Assembly: GCA_001914955.1 (NCBI GenBank)
Contig: MNDM01000086.1
Location: 1 to 56,374 of the forward strand
Source of the DNA: Nitrospirae bacterium 13_2_20CM_2_62_8
GTDB taxonomy: Bacteria; Nitrospirota; Nitrospiria; Nitrospirales; Nitrospiraceae
DNA: 56,374 nt
Reading direction: 5' to 3'
The notes under the pieces were generated by a model. That model was not told where the DNA came from. It was given only the letters and a program-made list of their open reading frames with translations, and did not search any database. Made by a program: the position numbers and the translations under genes. Shown one piece after another: positions 24,484 through 38,755 of this stretch. Position 1 is the stretch's first letter; the number at the start of each line of letters is the position of its first letter.

Positions 24484-24560
24484 GGGCCCATAGCTCAGGT
24501 GGTCAGAGCGGCTGACTCATAATCAGCTGGTCCCAGGTTCGAGTCCTGGTGGGCCCACCA
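24484..24560 (+). tRNA. tRNA with CAT anticodon, probably tRNA-Ile2 (lysidine type)
   Basis: A full cloverleaf with encoded CCA: acceptor GGGCCCA/TGGGCCC, D-stem GCTC/GAGC, anticodon stem GCTGA/TCAGC with loop CTCATAA, and T-stem CCAGG/CCTGG with loop TTCGAGT. A CAT anticodon belongs to initiator Met, elongator Met or Ile2. The first acceptor pair is G-C, which argues against an initiator. C4-G69 and C5-G68 are present, the pairs known to favour the lysidine synthetase TilS, so tRNA-Ile2 is preferred over elongator tRNA-Met. Confidence 0.9.
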
Positions 24561-26198: not shown

Positions 26199-26652
26199 CG
26201 CACTGGAGGAGACCGGGTGGTCGCCCGCGGGCAGTTAGCCGCGGGAGGAAAGTCCGGACTCCAAGGGCAGGGTGCTGGGTAACGCCCAGGCGGAGCGATC
26301 CGACACCGGCGCCACAGAGAATAGACCGCCGATGGCCGAGTCGAGGCGCGTGCAGGGGACGCAACGCACGACCTCATCTCGGCTCAGGCAAGGGTGAAAC
26401 GGCGGGGTAAGAGCCCACCGCGTCTCGTGGTGACATGGACGGCACGGCAAGCGTCGCCCGGAGCAAGACCAAATAGGAGGACGGCCGAGACGCGACTCGT
26501 TCTCGTCTCGGACGCGGCTGGCCCGGCCGAGGTCCTCGGGTAGGTCGCTTGAGGCTCGGGGTAACTCGAGCCCTAGAGAAATGGCCGCCCCCGCCGTAGC
26601 GTCGCGCGAAGGCGGGACAGAATCCGGCTTATAGGTTTTCTCCAGCGCGCTC
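26199..26652 (+). ncRNA. rnpB: RNase P RNA, type A
   Basis: The catalytic RNA of RNase P, which trims tRNA 5' ends. Conserved blocks are visible in order: GGAGGAAAGTCCGGACTCC, the CAGGGTGCTGGGTAACGCC region, ACAGAGAATAGACCGCC, GGTAAGAGCCCACCG, GGAGCAAGACCAAATAGG, and finally GACAGAATCCGGCTTATAGG. Helix P1 pairs GCGC-A-CTGGAG near 26198-26208 with CTCCAGCGC near 26640-26648, and a TCTTTTTA run follows as the terminator. The 3' 80 bases overlap, in antisense, the end of a glutaredoxin-like gene. Confidence 0.95.
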
Positions 26653-30619: not shown

Positions 30620-31300
30620 ATGGCAGATCGAGCAGTCGGCATTCCAATTGTCCGGGAAGGGCTTCCGTTCGTGGCCGCGGCAGGCGGGTTGACGGCGCTG
30701 GCCGGGTCGCTCGGCTGGGTCGGCCCCGCGGTTGTTCTCGGCACGCTGACGTTGTTGACGGCCTGGTTTTTCCGGAACCCGAGACGGCACGCGCCCCAGA
30801 CGGCGGGAGCCGTGGTGGCGCCCGGCGATGGCCGCGTCCTCGCGGTCCATGAAGAGTATGAACCGCGATTTCTCAAGGATCGGAGCACTCGAGTCAGCAT
30901 CTTTCTGAGCATATTCGATGTGCACGTGACCCGCATTCCGTGCGACGGGACAATCGAAAAGATTGCCTATCAGCCCGGTCGCTTTCTGGCGGCCAACCGG
31001 CCGGAAGCCACGCTGCGAAACGAGCAGAACGGCCTTCTGATACGAACGGCGGGGGGCGCGAAGGTGCTCTGTGTCCAAGTGGCCGGGCTGCTCGCCCGGC
31101 GAATCGTCTGTTGGGCCTTTCCGGGTGAGGCAGTGGCCTGCGGCGAGCGCTTCGGTCTGATCAGATTTGGATCGCGCGTGGACATGTACCTTCCCCTCGG
31201 GGCCAAAGTGCGGGTGACGGTCGGAGATCACGTGAAGGGCGGCGAGACCGTCCTTACGGAGTTGAGCGACGAGGAGTCGTCATGCGGACTGCGCTCATGA
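30620..31300 (+). CDS. psd: Phosphatidylserine decarboxylase, short form
   Basis: A 226-residue membrane-associated proenzyme making phosphatidylethanolamine. Hydrophobic segments cover residues ~12-50. The self-cleavage site is the Gly-Ser in RFGSRVDMYLP, whose Ser becomes the pyruvoyl group. The active-site segment FDVHVTRIPCDG is present. The length matches the short, archaeal-like group rather than the ~320-residue E. coli enzyme. It overlaps pssA by 19 bases, so both phospholipid steps are coupled. Confidence 0.93.
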   Translation: MADRAVGIPIVREGLPFVAAAGGLTALAGSLGWVGPAVVLGTLTLLTAWFFRNPRRHAPQTAGAVVAPGDGRVLAVHEEYEPRFLKDRSTRVSIFLSIFDVHVTRIPCDGTIEKIAYQPGRFLAANRPEATLRNEQNGLLIRTAGGAKVLCVQVAGLLARRIVCWAFPGEAVACGERFGLIRFGSRVDMYLPLGAKVRVTVGDHVKGGETVLTELSDEESSCGLRS

Positions 31301-32070
31301 AAGAACCCAAACGAAAACGGGGGATCTATCTGATCCCCAACCTGCTGACCACCGGGAACCTGTTCAGCGGGTTGTTCTCGATCCTTGCCGTCTTCAACGC
31401 CAATTACGTGACGGCGGCGATCGCCATCCTGGTGGCCCTGATCTTCGATATGCTGGACGGCAAGTCGGCCCGCTTGATGAACAGCACCAGCCAGTTCGGA
31501 GTGGAGTATGACTCCTTGGCCGACCTCGTCTCCTTCGGGGTCGCGCCGGGACTGCTGATTTACTCCTGGGCCTTGAGCGCGCACGGCATGTTGGGCTCAG
31601 CGGTCATGTTTTCGTTTGTCGCCTGCGGGGCGCTGCGGCTCGCACGGTACAACGCCTTGGCGGCCACCACCGAGAACAAGAATTTTACCGGCCTTCCGAT
31701 TCCGGCCGCGGCCGGCGTGATCGCCACGCTGGTGGTGTTTGACCATCACATCGTGCGGATGGGCGCGGAGGTCAAACCGCTCCTGATCCTCATCATGACC
31801 CTCACGCTGGCATTCTTGATGGTCAGCACGATCAAGTACCGGAGTTTCAAGGATCTCAAGTTCCGCGGTGGTCGCCATTTCAACTACCTGGTCTGGGCGA
31901 TTCTCTCGCTGATGCTGATCGCGGCGTGGCCCCAAGTGATGTTGTTCGTCGTGTTCGCGGGCTATGCGGTGTCGGGGGTCGTTGAGAAAGGGCTGAGCCT
32001 CCTCGTCAAGGCAGTGGGCAATCGACGGGGGGCGGGGTCCGATCAACCGGTGCTGGAGAGGAAAGAGTAG
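31282..32070 (+). CDS. pssA: CDP-diacylglycerol-serine O-phosphatidyltransferase
   Basis: A 262-residue integral membrane enzyme that makes phosphatidylserine for Psd. The CDP-alcohol phosphotransferase motif D-G-x2-A-R-x8-G-x3-D-x3-D is complete (DMLDGKSARL ... FGVEYDSLAD). About seven hydrophobic segments are visible. The start at 31282 has GGAG six bases ahead; a second ATG at 31297 would give an ATGA overlap with psd. The T-box leader of leuA begins just after its stop. Confidence 0.93.
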   Translation: MRTALMKEPKRKRGIYLIPNLLTTGNLFSGLFSILAVFNANYVTAAIAILVALIFDMLDGKSARLMNSTSQFGVEYDSLADLVSFGVAPGLLIYSWALSAHGMLGSAVMFSFVACGALRLARYNALAATTENKNFTGLPIPAAAGVIATLVVFDHHIVRMGAEVKPLLILIMTLTLAFLMVSTIKYRSFKDLKFRGGRHFNYLVWAILSLMLIAAWPQVMLFVVFAGYAVSGVVEKGLSLLVKAVGNRRGAGSDQPVLERKE

Positions 32071-32079
32071 AGCGGCTGC

Positions 32080-32253
32080 AACGGGCGAGTAAGAGTCCCC
32101 GCCTGACCGGCGTGAAGGGTCACACGAAGGGTGTCCGGCTGCTCGTCGAAGCGGGGCACCGAATCAGGGTGGTACCACGGAGCGCGCTGAGCCTTCGTCC
32201 GGGGTGCCCGTTGCCCGTTTTATTGCAACGGGCCCTGGGAGGAAGGTTTTTTT
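32080..32253 (+). promoter_or_regulatory. T-box riboswitch upstream of leuA
   Basis: The conserved T-box AGGGTGGTACCACGG is at 32166-32180; its TGGT can pair with the ACCA end of an uncharged tRNA. The antiterminator pairs GG and ACG of the T-box with CGT and CC in CCTTCGTCC (32192-32200). The competing terminator uses the same CCTTCGTCC with GGGAGGAAGG, extended by GCCCGTTGC (32206-32214) with GCAACGGGC (32225-32233), and ends in seven T (32247-32253). Upstream, CCCCGC (32097-32102) pairs with GCGGGG (32151-32156). The internal loop above holds CTG/CTC leucine codons (32139-32144), the likely specifier. Confidence 0.85.
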
Positions 32254-32538
32254 GTTTGGGGGTGTGGCTGGGTTCGTCCCATGCTCCCGCACCCCGCACA
32301 CACCTGAAGGGGGTGCAGCGGCCAGGCTCCCTCCTGTGCTCGCGCGTCGCGCACTCAAGATTTATTGGTTCCGGGCCTCCGCGGATGGAGTGCTCGCCGG
32401 ACGCGCGCAGTTGGAGGCAGCCTGGCCACTGCCCCTCAGGATGGGAGGAACGGGGAGTGTGCCGGGTGATGACGCGCGCGTAGGGACTAGCCAGGCCACC
32501 CGTCAGCAATTTGTTCGTGTTGAAGAGGAGTAATGAGT
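32254..32538 (+). other. Untranslated stretch between the T-box terminator and leuA
   Basis: About 285 bases without a supported gene. GC-rich short stems are possible but none stands out. Open frames here show no family features. The final bases carry the leuA ribosome site GAGGAG. Confidence 0.5.
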
Positions 32539-34086
32539 ATGACGCGGATGATTCGGATCTTTGACACCACCTTGCGGGACGGCGAGCAATCGCCCGGGGC
32601 TGGCATGAATGTCGAGGAAAAGGTGATGATCGCCAAACAGCTGGCCAGGCTCGGGGTGGACATTATCGAGGCTGGATTCGCCTACAGTTCGCCGGGCGAT
32701 TTCGAAGCGGTCCGGCAAGTGGCCCAGGAAGTGGAGGGACCGACGATCTGCAGCCTGGCCAGGGCCAAGAAGGAAGACATCGACCGGGCGTGGGAAGCGC
32801 TGAAGGGCGCTCCGAAAGTTCGAATCCACACGTTCCTCTCGACCTCGGACATCCATCTAAAGTATCAGTTCCGGATCAGTCGGGAGGAGGCGTTGAAACG
32901 GGCGGTCGAGATGGTCCAGTGTGCGCGCAGCTACGTGGACGACGTCGAGTTCTCGCCGATGGACGCCAGCCGCTCGGATCCGAGCTACCTGTACGAGGTG
33001 CTGGAAGCGGTGATCGAGGCGGGAGCCGGAACCGTCAATCTTCCCGACACGGTCGGGTATGCATCCCCTCAGGAATTCGGGCTGCTGATCCGCGGGATCG
33101 GCGAGCGCGTTCGGAACAGCGGTCGCGCCGTGATCTCGGTCCACTGCCACAACGACCTCGGCCTGGCCGTGGCCAATTCACTGGCGGCGATCCTGGAGGG
33201 GGCCGGTCAAGTGGAATGCACGATCAACGGGATCGGCGAGCGGGCCGGCAATGCGTCGCTTGAGGAGATCGTGATGGGGCTCCGGACCCGCAAGGATTTC
33301 TACAAGGCGGATACGGGGATCCGCACCGAGGAGATTTCCAAGACCAGTCGCCTCGTCAGCAAGATCACGGGCATGGTGGTCCAGCCGAACAAGGCGATCG
33401 TCGGCGCCAATGCCTTCGCCCACACCTCCGGCATCCATCAAGACGGACTGCTGAAGGAGAAGAGCACGTACGAGATCATGCGACCCGAGTCGATCGGTCT
33501 GGTCCAGAGCCGGATGGTGATGGGGAAGCTGTCGGGCCGGCATGCCTTCCGGCAGCGGCTCGAAGAGTTGGGCTACAAACCGTCCGATGACGAGATCAAT
33601 CGGGCGTTCGACCGGGTGAAGCGGCTGGCGGATCAGAAACAAGAGATCTATGAAGAGGACCTGGAGGTCATCATCTCCGAAGAGATCGCCAAAATTCAGG
33701 AACGCGTTCAGCTCAAAACGTTGTATGTCGAAAGCGGGACCAACCAGGTACCGACCGCCACGGTGGAATTGGAGATCGACGGCCGACTCGTGAAACAGAC
33801 CGGAACGGGCGACGGGCCGGTGGACGCCGCGTATCGGACCATCGCCGCCATGACGCAGACCAAGAGCCGCCTGCTGACCTATTCGGTCAAGGCCATTACC
33901 GGCGGAACCGACGCGCAAGGCGAGGTCTCGGTGCGGCTGGAAGAGGGAGGCAAGACGGCCATCGGCCACGGAGCGGATACCGATATAATTCTGGCCTCGG
34001 CCCGGGCCTACCTCAATGCGCTCAACAAACTGGCCTACTGGGCCTCAAAGCAGGCCGATCCGGCGCAGAAGGTCGGCTTGATTTGA
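32539..34086 (+). CDS. leuA: 2-isopropylmalate synthase
   Basis: A 515-residue enzyme of the first leucine-specific step, adding acetyl-CoA to 2-oxoisovalerate. The catalytic barrel opens with [17 protein letters not shown]. The metal-binding [13 protein letters not shown] and the [11 protein letters not shown] segment follow. The C-terminal ~130 residues are the leucine-sensing regulatory domain, so feedback inhibition is likely in addition to the T-box. The ATG at 32539 is eight bases after GGAG; an ATG at 32533 lies too close to that site. Confidence 0.96.
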
Positions 34087-34204: not shown

Positions 34205-34226
34205 AGGTTGAAGGGGAATGCCGCCG

Positions 34227-35552
34227 ATGGGCATGAACATGACCGAGAAGATCCTGGCCCGCCACGCCGGCAAGGTGAGCGTGGCGCCGGGAGAGAATAT
34301 CTGGGTGGACGTGGACGTCCTGATGACGCACGACGTGTGCGGACCGGGGACCATCCAGATTTTCCACAAGCAATTCGGGGCCGCCGCCAGGGTGTGGGAT
34401 CGTGAGAAGGTCGTGGTGATTCCGGATCATTACATTTTCACCAAGGACCTCCACGCTCACCGCAACCTGGATCTCCTGAGGAGCTTCGTGACGGAACAGC
34501 AGCTTCCGTATTTCTATGACGTCGGCACGCCCAAGTACAAAGGCGTGTGTCACATCGCGTTGCCGGAGGAAGGACACACGAGGCCCGGCGAGGTGCTGTT
34601 CGGAACGGACTCGCATACCTGCACGGCCGGAGCGTTCGGAGAATTCGCGACCGGGATCGGCAACACGGACGCCGCCCTGATCATGGGGATCGGCAAGCTG
34701 TGGGTCAAGGTGCCGGAAACCATGCGCTTCGTCTTCGAAGGGCCGCTTCCTCCGTACCTGATGGCCAAGGATCTGATCCTGCATATCATCGGAGACATCG
34801 GGGTGGACGGCGCCACGTACCGTGCGATGGAGTTTGCGGGAGATGGGGTGATGGCGCTCAGCATCGAAGAGCGGATGACCCTGTGTAACATGGTCATCGA
34901 GGCCGGCGGCAAGAATGGCATCATCGCCCCGGACGAGGTCACGGAGGCCTTCGTCAGGTCGAAGACCAACCGGCCGTATGAGGTGGTGGCCAATGATGCT
35001 GACGCCCGGTTCCACAGCCTGCGGGTCTATCAGACGAAGGAGATCGAGCCGACGGTGGCCAAGCCGCATTCTCCGGACAATCGGGATACGGCGTTCCGGT
35101 GCCGGGACGTGGTGGTGGACCGGGCCTATATCGGCTCGTGCACGGGAGGCAAGGTCACGGATTTCCGAGCGGCGGCGAGTATCCTGAAGGGCAAGCAGGT
35201 GAAAGTGGACACGTTCGTGGTCCCGGCCACCACCGAGGTCGCCCGCGCGCTGGCGACGGAATATCTGGACGGCGAATCCCTGCAGTCTATTTTCGAAAGC
35301 GCCGGGGCCAGAATCGCGGAGGGTGCCTCCTGCGCGGCCTGCCTGGGAGGTCCGTCGGATACGTTCGGACGGCTCAACAAGAGCGAGGTCTGTATCTCCA
35401 CGACAAACCGGAACTTCCCCGGTCGGATGGGGTCGAAATCAGCGCAAGTCTACCTGGCTTCTCCTTACACCGTCGCGGCTTCCGCCGTCACCGGGAAAAT
35501 CACCGACCCTCGCGAGTTTCTGGCGGCCCGGGCCGACCGACGGTCGTGTTGA
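34227..35552 (+). CDS. leuC: 3-isopropylmalate dehydratase, large subunit
   Basis: About 441 residues, an aconitase-family [4Fe-4S] enzyme. The cluster cysteines are in IGSCTGGKV and GASCAACLGG. The active-site TDSHTCTAGAFGEFA and the start TEKILARHAGK are typical. Its length is that of the shorter (archaeal-like) LeuC type, not the ~466-residue E. coli form. The ATG at 34227 has a GGGG ten bases upstream; ATGs at 34218 and 34233 are alternatives. It works with LeuD, but a cupin gene separates the two. Confidence 0.95.
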   Translation: MGMNMTEKILARHAGKVSVAPGENIWVDVDVLMTHDVCGPGTIQIFHKQFGAAARVWDREKVVVIPDHYIFTKDLHAHRNLDLLRSFVTEQQLPYFYDVGTPKYKGVCHIALPEEGHTRPGEVLFGTDSHTCTAGAFGEFATGIGNTDAALIMGIGKLWVKVPETMRFVFEGPLPPYLMAKDLILHIIGDIGVDGATYRAMEFAGDGVMALSIEERMTLCNMVIEAGGKNGIIAPDEVTEAFVRSKTNRPYEVVANDADARFHSLRVYQTKEIEPTVAKPHSPDNRDTAFRCRDVVVDRAYIGSCTGGKVTDFRAAASILKGKQVKVDTFVVPATTEVARALATEYLDGESLQSIFESAGARIAEGASCAACLGGPSDTFGRLNKSEVCISTTNRNFPGRMGSKSAQVYLASPYTVAASAVTGKITDPREFLAARADRRSC

Positions 35553-35968
35553 TCACCAGCCTGAACCGGTGTGAAGAATTTCTTGCGGGCGACCACACGC
35601 GGTTGCGAGAGTTGCTGCATCCCTCTCGCCTCCCCGTCGCAATTCGATACAGCCTGGCCCATGGGCGGTTGGAGCCGGGGAGACGCTCGAAGCTGCATCG
35701 TCTGGCGTCGTCGGAGGTCTACTATTTTTTAGTCGGCCACGGGGTCTTCCGGGTTGGAGACGAATCGGCTGCGGTGGAGCCGGGCACGGTGGTCTATGTG
35801 CCGCCGGGAATGGCGCAGACCCTGGAAAATACCGGGGGCGCCGGACTCGAGTTCCTGTGCCTGGTTGACCCGGCGTGGAGGTCCCAGGACGAAGACGTGA
35901 TCGAAGAGCGGGACAGAAGCTCCGCACCGGATCGGACCGGATCGGAGCGGGACAGGATACAGAGGTGA
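35546..35968 (+). CDS. Cupin-domain protein between leuC and leuD
   Basis: About 140 residues with a single cupin barrel. The first motif reads PGRRSKLHRLASSEVYYFLVGHG with a His and Glu for metal. The second is GTVVYVPPGMAQTLENTG, where the usual His is replaced by Gln, so metal binding may be altered. A charged tail follows (~115-140). Starting at GTG 35546 it overlaps the last seven bases of leuC. It may be a small sensor or isomerase-like enzyme; a role in leucine synthesis is only suggested by position. Confidence 0.8.
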   Translation: MLITSLNRCEEFLAGDHTRLRELLHPSRLPVAIRYSLAHGRLEPGRRSKLHRLASSEVYYFLVGHGVFRVGDESAAVEPGTVVYVPPGMAQTLENTGGAGLEFLCLVDPAWRSQDEDVIEERDRSSAPDRTGSERDRIQR

Positions 35969-35989
35969 GCAGGAGGACGGGGGACGGGG

Positions 35990-36550
35990 ATGAGAGACGT
36001 GATTCGCGGGAAAGCCTACGTGCTGGGCCACAATATCGATACGGATCAGATTATTCCCGCCAAGCATCTCGTCTATAGCCTCGCCGATCCGGAAGAGCGA
36101 AAATTGTACGGGACCTACGCGCTATCGGGGGTCCCGGACCAGGCGGCTGGGCTGCCGGCCGGGCATGTGAAGTTCGTGCCGGACGGCCAGCACCGGTCGG
36201 AGTTTCGTGTGCTCGTCGCGGGCAAGAACTTCGGCTGCGGCTCTTCACGGGAACACGCGCCCGTGGCGCTGCAGATTGCGGGCGTCGAGGCGGTCGTCGC
36301 CGAGTCCTACGCGCGAATCTTTTACCGCAATGCGGTGAACGGCGGCTTCCTGCTGCCGTTCGAGCTGGTCGAGTCGGTCTGGCAGAGGGTGAAGACGGGT
36401 GACGAACTGGAGATTCAAGTCTCCACGGGGACCCTCCGGAACCTGACCGCCGGGGAGGCCTATGCGCTCAGGTCTCTGGGGGACGTCATCGGGATCCTGA
36501 AGGCGGGCGACGTCTTTGCGTACGCCAAGCAGAGCGGGCTGATGAAGTAG
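35990..36550 (+). CDS. leuD: 3-isopropylmalate dehydratase, small subunit
   Basis: A 186-residue swivelling subunit that completes isopropylmalate isomerase with LeuC. Conserved segments are GHNIDTDQIIPAKHL near the start and GKNFGCGSSREHAPVAL, which closes over the substrate. A GGAGG lies about 14 bases before the ATG, with a G-rich stretch between. It ends 12 bases before leuB. Confidence 0.95.
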   Translation: MRDVIRGKAYVLGHNIDTDQIIPAKHLVYSLADPEERKLYGTYALSGVPDQAAGLPAGHVKFVPDGQHRSEFRVLVAGKNFGCGSSREHAPVALQIAGVEAVVAESYARIFYRNAVNGGFLLPFELVESVWQRVKTGDELEIQVSTGTLRNLTAGEAYALRSLGDVIGILKAGDVFAYAKQSGLMK

Positions 36551-36562
36551 GCGGGAGGCATT

Positions 36563-38755
36563 GTGAAAGCTCGAATTGCGGTCCTGGCTGGTGATGGGGT
36601 CGGGCAGGAGATCGTTCCCGAGGCGGTCAAACTCCTCAAGGCGGTCGGTGAACGATTTCACCATGCCTTCGAGTTCGTCACCGGCGACGTCGGCGGGTAC
36701 GCCATCGACAAGGTCGGTGTGCCCCTCCCGCAGGAGACGCTCGCGCTGGCGAAGCAGAGCGATGCCGTGCTGTTGGGTGCCGTGGGCGGGCCTCGGTGGG
36801 AAGGGTTGGCATACAGTCTGCGTCCCGAACGTGCCCTCCTCGGCCTGCGCGAGCAACTCGGCCTGTTCGCCAACCTTCGTCCTGCCAAGCTGTACCCGAT
36901 GCTGGCCGAGGCGTCCACGCTGAAGCGGGAGGTGATCGAGGGGATCGATCTCCTCGTGGTCAGAGAGCTGACGGGAGGAATTTATTTCGGAAAACCGAAG
37001 GGGATCGAGAAGACCGCCGGCGGAGAGAAGGGCGTCAACACCGAGGTGTACACCACCGAGGAAATTCGGCGCATTGCGAAAGTGGCGTTCGAGGTGGCTC
37101 GCAAGCGGAGACGTCGGGTCACGTCCGTGGACAAGGCCAATGTGCTGGAGTCCTCTGAACTCTGGAGGCGAGTGGTCATCGAGGTCCACACAGGCTATCC
37201 GGACGTCGAACTCAGCCATATGTACGTCGACAACTGCGCCATGCAACTCATCAGAAACCCGAGGCAGTTCGATGTCCTGCTCACCACGAACCTCTTCGGC
37301 GATATCCTGAGCGATGAAGCGGCGATGCTGACGGGCTCGATCGGGATGCTCCCGTCCGCCAGCCTCGGCGCGCGCGCGGGCCTGTATGAGCCGATTCACG
37401 GCAGCGCGCCGGACATCGCGGGAAAAAACCTGGCGAATCCCATCGCCACCATCGCGTCGGCCGCCATGATGCTGGCTTACACGTTTGATCTCGAAAAGGA
37501 GGCCGAGGCGGTCGAGCACGCCATCTTCAAAGCGCTCGAGCAGGGGTATCGGACGAAAGACATTCACAGTCACGGGACCAAGCTGGTGGGGACGACGGAA
37601 ATGGGCCAGGGGGACGGCGGACCGGCAGTCTCCGCTGCCCTGAACGAGCCGAGGAACATCGCGCTGGATCGTGCCGGGCACCTCTACATTGCCGACTCTG
37701 AAAATCACGTGATCAGGAGGGTCGATCTCAAGACCGGAATCGTCGTCACCGTTGCGGGCTGTCCAGGGGCCGGGTCCTCCGGACAGGAGGTCGGGGATCT
37801 TCGCGGGACTTCGGCTGCCGAGCAGGCCGAGGATGACCCCTTCGGGGGGCCCGAACAATCAACGCCGCAAAAGTTTGCGCAACTGGCGGACCTTAGCGGA
37901 ACCGTACGGTTTGTGGTGGGGACCGCGGCCGGCGCCGGGCGATTTCACGGGGACGGCGGTCCCGCGTCTCACGCGACGCTGAACGTTCCAAGCGCTGTGG
38001 TGGCGGACGAAGCGGGCCACCTCTATATCGCCGATACGATGAACCACCGGATCCGAAAAGTGGAGGCCGCTACCGGAACCATGACGACCATTGCCGGAAC
38101 GGGGCAGCATCGATTCTCCGGAGACGGCGGACCGGCCGTCTCCGCGGCCCTGAACGAGCCGACGGCCCTGGCGGTGGATCGCAAAGGGCACTTGTACATC
38201 GCCGATCAGAGCAACAATCGAGTCCGCCGGCTGGATCTGGCCACGGGAGTCATCACCACGGTGGCAGGCACCGGTGAGGCGGGGTATACGGGAGACGGCA
38301 TCGTGGCGTCTGAGGCCGGCCTGTCCGGGCCCAGCGGCCTGGCCTTAGGTCCCGACGGCGCGCTGTATATCGCCGATACCTTTAACGGCCGGATTCGCCG
38401 GGTGGATCCGGAGACCGGCTTCATCAGCACCGTGGCAGGAGACGGCGGGGAGTACCGGTACCAGGGACGGGCGAACGAGTTTTCGACGAGTCTGTCTCGT
38501 CCCTATGGAATTGCCCTGGATCCGGAGGGGCATATCCTGATCACCGATTCCGACAGCCATCTCATCCGGAAATGGGACAGCACGAGAAAGATCGTCAGAC
38601 GAGTGGCCGGGAACGGCATGGCTCAGTTCGGGGGCGATGGCGGCCCGCCTGAGGACTGTAGCCTGAATTACCCGTTCGGAGTCGCGGTCGATGACCAGGG
38701 GAATCTGTACATCGCCGACACCTTTAATCATCGGGTCCGTATGATCGCCGCCTGA
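36563..38755 (+). CDS. leuB: 3-isopropylmalate dehydrogenase fused to an NHL beta-propeller
   Basis: A 730-residue protein. Residues 1-348 are a complete Leu[36 protein letters not shown], the catalytic Tyr in [10 protein letters not shown], the Lys in [10 protein letters not shown], the [14 protein letters not shown] metal site, GSAPDIAGK, and the normal end [10 protein letters not shown]. The frame then continues directly into [14 protein letters not shown] and six recognisable NHL repeats starting near residues 360, 473, 530, 587, 644 and 701. The period is 57, and one decayed unit probably fills the 360-473 gap. There is no signal peptide, so the propeller would be cytoplasmic. GTG start with GGAGG five bases ahead. 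Confidence 0.93.

Follow-up and report, generated by a model that had tools for sequence, protein, structure and literature searches.

Organization of the pssA-leuA region

The DNA that we analyzed (the window) is a stretch of 56,374 nucleotides from Nitrospirae bacterium 13_2_20CM_2_62_8 (genome G000). According to the gene calls, the leader studied here lies within the gene order ilvB, ilvN, ilvC, psd, pssA, leuA, leuC, leuD, leuB, asd. The upstream gene pssA (positions 31282 to 32070; TIGR00473, 134 bits with a cutoff of 107) ends in a stop codon at 32068 to 32070, and the regulated gene leuA (32533 to 34086; TIGR00973, 729.7 bits with a cutoff of 598.7) encodes 2-isopropylmalate synthase. 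Both genes, and all features in the gap between them (32071 to 32532), are on the forward strand. leuA and leuB are separated by leuC and leuD (34218 to 36550), which are of an archaeal/homoaconitase-like type; in the four relatives examined, leuB comes after leuA without leuC or leuD in between. The window also contains a tRNA-Met(CAT) gene (24484 to 24557) and a class A bacterial RNase P RNA (26205 to 26647; 257.9 bits).

In T-box riboswitches, an uncharged tRNA stabilizes the antiterminator by pairing its anticodon with the specifier and its 3' NCCA end with a UGGN bulge. A preliminary description of the locus had reported such an element with all core parts visible, and for the 3' half of the leader this was largely borne out. 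The T-box sequence AGGGTGGTACCACG (32166 to 32179) contains the bulge TGGTACC (32170 to 32176), whose UGGU (32170 to 32173) matches the 3' ACCA of tRNA. Antiterminator helix A2 (32177 to 32198) is intact, as ACGGAG (32177 to 32182) finds the claimed partner, CTTCGT, at 32193 to 32198. The strong competing terminator is present as well (32192 to 32253), ending in seven T residues (32247 to 32253). Stem III with its flanking purines extends from 32129 to 32163, and the flanks, as defined in PMC7778990 and PMC7583486, are GGGTG (RRRNG; 32129 to 32133) and AA (32162 to 32163). Upstream, conserved columns in 78 leaders delimit a Stem IIA hairpin at 32104 to 32131 (TGACC/GGTCA with CGTGA in the loop, plus an ACGAAGG strand), which was assigned to IIA/B on the basis of the T-box anatomy described in PMC7583486.

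The claim does not hold for the 5' half, as the window copy lacks Stem I, the specifier, and one strand (5') of Stem II. The other Stem II strand is kept in part: alignment with loci L074 and L138 identifies, at 32080 to 32100, a remnant of this 3' strand (AGTAAGAGTCCCC) and, 5' of it, the 3' half of a palindromic repeat (GCAACGGGCG). The junction of the presumed deletion (AGCGGC followed by TGC) falls at 32071 to 32079, as judged from the alignment with L074 and from the distance between the pssA stop codon and the T-box motif. Stem I had been described as short, with CTG/CTC codons in its internal loop. It is absent rather than short, the pssA stop codon being only 95 nt 5' of the T-box motif, and its hallmarks (AGUA opposite GAA-codon-purine, and the AGAGA/GGUG apical motifs) were not found in the window leader. 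The proposed CTG/CTC specifier near 32103 was rejected: CTG at 32103 to 32105 lies at the base of the IIA hairpin, and the triplet aligned to it varies among relatives (GTG, CTT, ATG, and others), many of which have no leucine codon there.

The covariance check suggested for the element was run with the Rfam T-box model (RF00230). The window gave no match at the gathering score of 93 bits, and a whole-genome search of G000 found no match anywhere. The best local score in the window leader, 11.1 bits, covered model positions 189 to 214, that is, the antiterminator only.

Intact leaders in the Nitrospira family

A DNA search with the window leader matched 37 of 61 relatives, 35 of them within the Nitrospira family, and the family leaders read from this search are located ahead of leuA. 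The window element is not a chance sequence, because the stretch from 32085 to 32200 is conserved in these leuA leaders. In the relatives, including Nitrospira moscoviensis and "Candidatus Nitrospira defluvii," the leader and its Stem I begin about 10 nt past the pssA stop codon and show GAGGAGUAGUAGGCG, AGAGAGCUGGUGG, UGGUGCGAACCAGC, and CGCCGAACUCGCCUC, then Stem II, IIA/B, Stem III, and the antiterminator, in agreement with the T-box layout of PMC7583486 and PMC7778990. The distance from the pssA stop codon to the T-box motif is about 180 to 350 nt, versus 95 nt in the window. Each of the 80 other distinct leaders read (window copy excluded) has the Stem I motifs, and the specifier is GAA-CUC in 77 of these and GAA-CUG in 3; both encode leucine, which fits leuA. 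CUC is the specifier of 74% of leucine T-boxes in TBDB (PMC7778990).

These intact relatives settle the lineage, and with it the earlier assignment of the element to the T-box family, to leucine, to leuA as target, to a place between pssA and leuA, and to a phylum outside the Firmicutes. They also dispose of a new class of T-box with a short Stem I, which was rejected because the relatives carry a full Stem I.

The T-box model matched 162 of 175 Nitrospira-family genomes at an E value of ≤0.001 (70 exceed the cutoff), including 113 of 114 good-quality ones, usually once per genome; among the matches listed, those in the family are full length (model positions 1 to 219). The T-box core motif is the same in 158 of the 175 genomes, G000 included. 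The core motif occurs without a match to the model in just two genomes, G000 and G009, and the contig of the latter begins inside Stem I. The genomes with weak matches (G376, G380, G339, G026, and G027) all retain Stem I, and the G376 element is cut by a contig end. Hence, G000 is the only genome of the 175 that has the 3' core, lacks Stem I, and has a contig that continues upstream.

Could the leader instead be a leader-peptide attenuator? A 123-codon frame starting at 32112 does contain Leu-Leu. However, it has no run of leucine codons, no peptide is conserved across relatives, the features that are conserved are those of a T-box, and the relatives match the Rfam T-box model over its full length; we therefore give an attenuator almost no credence.

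Several otherwise intact T-boxes (L002, L004, L023, L173 to L176, and L200) carry repeat-like or palindromic insertions within Stem I, II, or III, as if the loops of these T-boxes tolerated repeats.

Antiterminator and terminator of the window copy

The discriminator core of the window copy is mostly intact (UGGUACC, RRRNG, AA, and helix A2), and the copy departs from 4 of 51 conserved columns, compared with 5 for L007 and 8 for L010. The damage is in antiterminator helix A1 (32165 to 32203). Here, CAGGG (32165 to 32169) faces CCGGG (32199 to 32203) instead of the expected CCCTG, owing to substitutions in alignment columns 166 and 167. As a result, helix A1 has 2 of its 5 pairs, versus 4 or 5 in all 79 other leaders scored.

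Folding energies were predicted for single strands, ignoring cotranscriptional folding. On this basis the window antiterminator is the weakest of 80 (-8.8 kcal/mol; mean of the others, -14.6, range, -19.2 to -10.7) and the window terminator is the strongest of 80 (-40.1 kcal/mol; mean of the others, -24.0, range, -39.2 to -18.6). Formation of the antiterminator is predicted to cost 20.1 kcal/mol in the window versus 4.6 kcal/mol, a low value, in G001 (isolate nzgw276, of the same genus and the nearest relative compared). The strength of the window terminator is due in part to a palindromic repeat, GCCCGTTGC..GCAACGGGC, that lies in the terminator loop (32206 to 32233); it has three perfect copies in G000 and occupies the same place in G001.

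Downstream of the terminator, the spacer that leads to leuA (32256 to 32532) contains a high-copy dispersed repeat, for which G000 has 48 matches and G001 has 60. A repeat search of 32060 to 32260 found none at the settings used.

Is the loss of Stem I real?

G001 has the full element, and the window is a net 184 bp shorter; the distance from stop codon to T-box is 95 nt in the window versus 279 nt in G001. By alignment with L074, the sequence missing relative to G001 comprises the whole of Stem I plus the 5' Stem II strand, as far as the 3' half of the palindromic repeat. The deletion call rests on one repeat-rich assembly that is 72.9% complete and consists of 86 contigs. An alternative is, therefore, that the organism has a full T-box and that the assembler lost Stem I at the palindromic repeat. 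The junction adjoins the 3' half of a repeat that L138 carries in Stem II, as does L074 in rearranged form; the G000 genome abounds in repeats; the full element is present in all but one of the good-quality family genomes; and the same window has a second apparent deletion, in which leuB is fused with an NHL gene. However, the missing Stem I piece is not on any other G000 contig, where nothing beyond a 22-base match was found, the junction is internal to a 57-kb contig, and the independent change of CCCTG to CCGGG in helix A1 fits relaxed selection in a real genome. We consider an assembly artifact a serious alternative, albeit an unlikely one.

The second apparent deletion concerns a frame of 730 amino acids (36563 to 38755) in which LeuB runs on in frame into NHL repeats. 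LeuB (frames of 357 to 401 amino acids) and an NHL-repeat frame are separate neighbors in four relatives, so that the window seems to have either a fusing deletion or an assembly error here.

A T-box that has probably lost its sensing domain

Our preferred interpretation is that the window element descends from a normal leucine T-box, was recently broken, and now mainly terminates transcription; on the evidence above we regard this as probable. The ancestor would have been a standard leucine T-box riboswitch, as found between pssA and leuA throughout the Nitrospira family. In the intact relatives, the anticodon of uncharged tRNA-Leu would pair with the Stem I specifier, CUC (or CUG), and the ACCA end of the tRNA would pair with UGGU in the antiterminator bulge. 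Binding of uncharged tRNA-Leu would thus block the terminator and allow transcription of the leu genes, and charged tRNA-Leu would not. Two tRNA-Leu genes (UAG and CAG) were found in G000, and both end in ACCA; a GAG tRNA was not found in the G000 assembly, which is 73% complete.

In the window genome, a deletion would have taken Stem I and half of Stem II, and two substitutions would have left helix A1 with two pairs; the terminator is longer than usual. According to a review (PMC7583486), tRNA could no longer induce read-through in vivo once the platform that Stem I provides for the tRNA elbow was disrupted, and what drives the switch is the stacking of the tRNA end on helix A1. With Stem I absent and the helix A1 platform lost, the window leader presumably cannot recruit tRNA-Leu and should terminate by default; leuA would therefore need read-through or a promoter located within the spacer. 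A scan of 31900 to 32600 found no sigma-70-like promoter. The preliminary description had further suggested that the leader can uncouple the leu genes from ilv-psd-pssA. Such uncoupling by leucine is likely in the relatives but is not expected for the window copy as assembled.

Alternatively, the window copy could be a working minimal T-box whose discriminator alone senses uncharged tRNA, with neither Stem I nor a specifier. The Stem III purines, the UGGU bulge, and helix A2 are retained, and the discriminator has been described as necessary and sufficient for aminoacylation sensing (PMC7583486). However, helix A1, the stacking platform for the tRNA end, is down to two pairs, the terminator is the strongest of 80, the form is absent from other family genomes, and without Stem I nothing selects tRNA-Leu. 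Such a minimal sensor is in our judgment very improbable, and we attach equally little weight to the role it would imply, that of a nonspecific starvation sensor or of a still functional step on the way to losing riboswitch control.

The direct homologues of the window copy are the family leuA T-boxes, such as those of "Candidatus Nitrospira defluvii" (FP929003.1) and N. moscoviensis (NZ_CP011801.1), which share the place between pssA and leuA, Stem IIA, Stem III, the T-box, and the terminator; unlike the window copy, they keep Stem I (AGUAGUA/GAACUC), a whole Stem II, and a helix A1 of five pairs. The leuA T-boxes of Geobacter sulfurreducens and Pelobacter carbinolicus (PMC2494555), compared here by description, are likewise ahead of leuA and outside the Firmicutes, but they are typical T-boxes and belong to another phylum. 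The translational T-boxes of Actinobacteria (PMC7583486, PMC7778990) have a short Stem I and thus a 5' domain that is reduced, as in the window copy; however, they have retained the specifier and Stem II, and they regulate translation, whereas the window copy lacks both and has an intrinsic terminator. Taken alone, the window copy is a well-understood device in a damaged, derived form that lacks two defining features. If the deletion is confirmed, it would represent a natural case of a riboswitch that has shed its sensing domain while the gene is retained.

Leucine T-boxes in Nitrospirota

Leucine T-box control of leuA appears to be near universal in the Nitrospira family and also occurs in other families of the Nitrospirota. 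Of the 296 genomes sampled from the phylum, 93 match the T-box model, 15 of these outside the Nitrospira family; no match was found in the sister families sampled from the same order. Seven T-box loci outside the family were read, and all have GAACUC, with six located ahead of leuA. An older survey listed T-boxes in Firmicutes, Actinobacteria, Chloroflexi, and Deinococcus and two deltaproteobacterial leuA leaders (PMC2494555). We found no papers on T-boxes in Nitrospirota in the literature searched, which left out most subscription papers.

Genome G017 has a second T-box (L042; G017:C132:258-523), apparently before an isoleucyl-tRNA synthetase frame, and its contig is perhaps a contaminant. 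According to a review (PMC7583486), a G-U wobble is conserved at the base of helix A2 and serves to reject 3'-aminoacyl tRNA. The family T-box reads ACCACG (position 32177 in the window), which gives an A-U pair at this base, versus ACCGCG at the Nitrospirota loci L172, L175, and L176.
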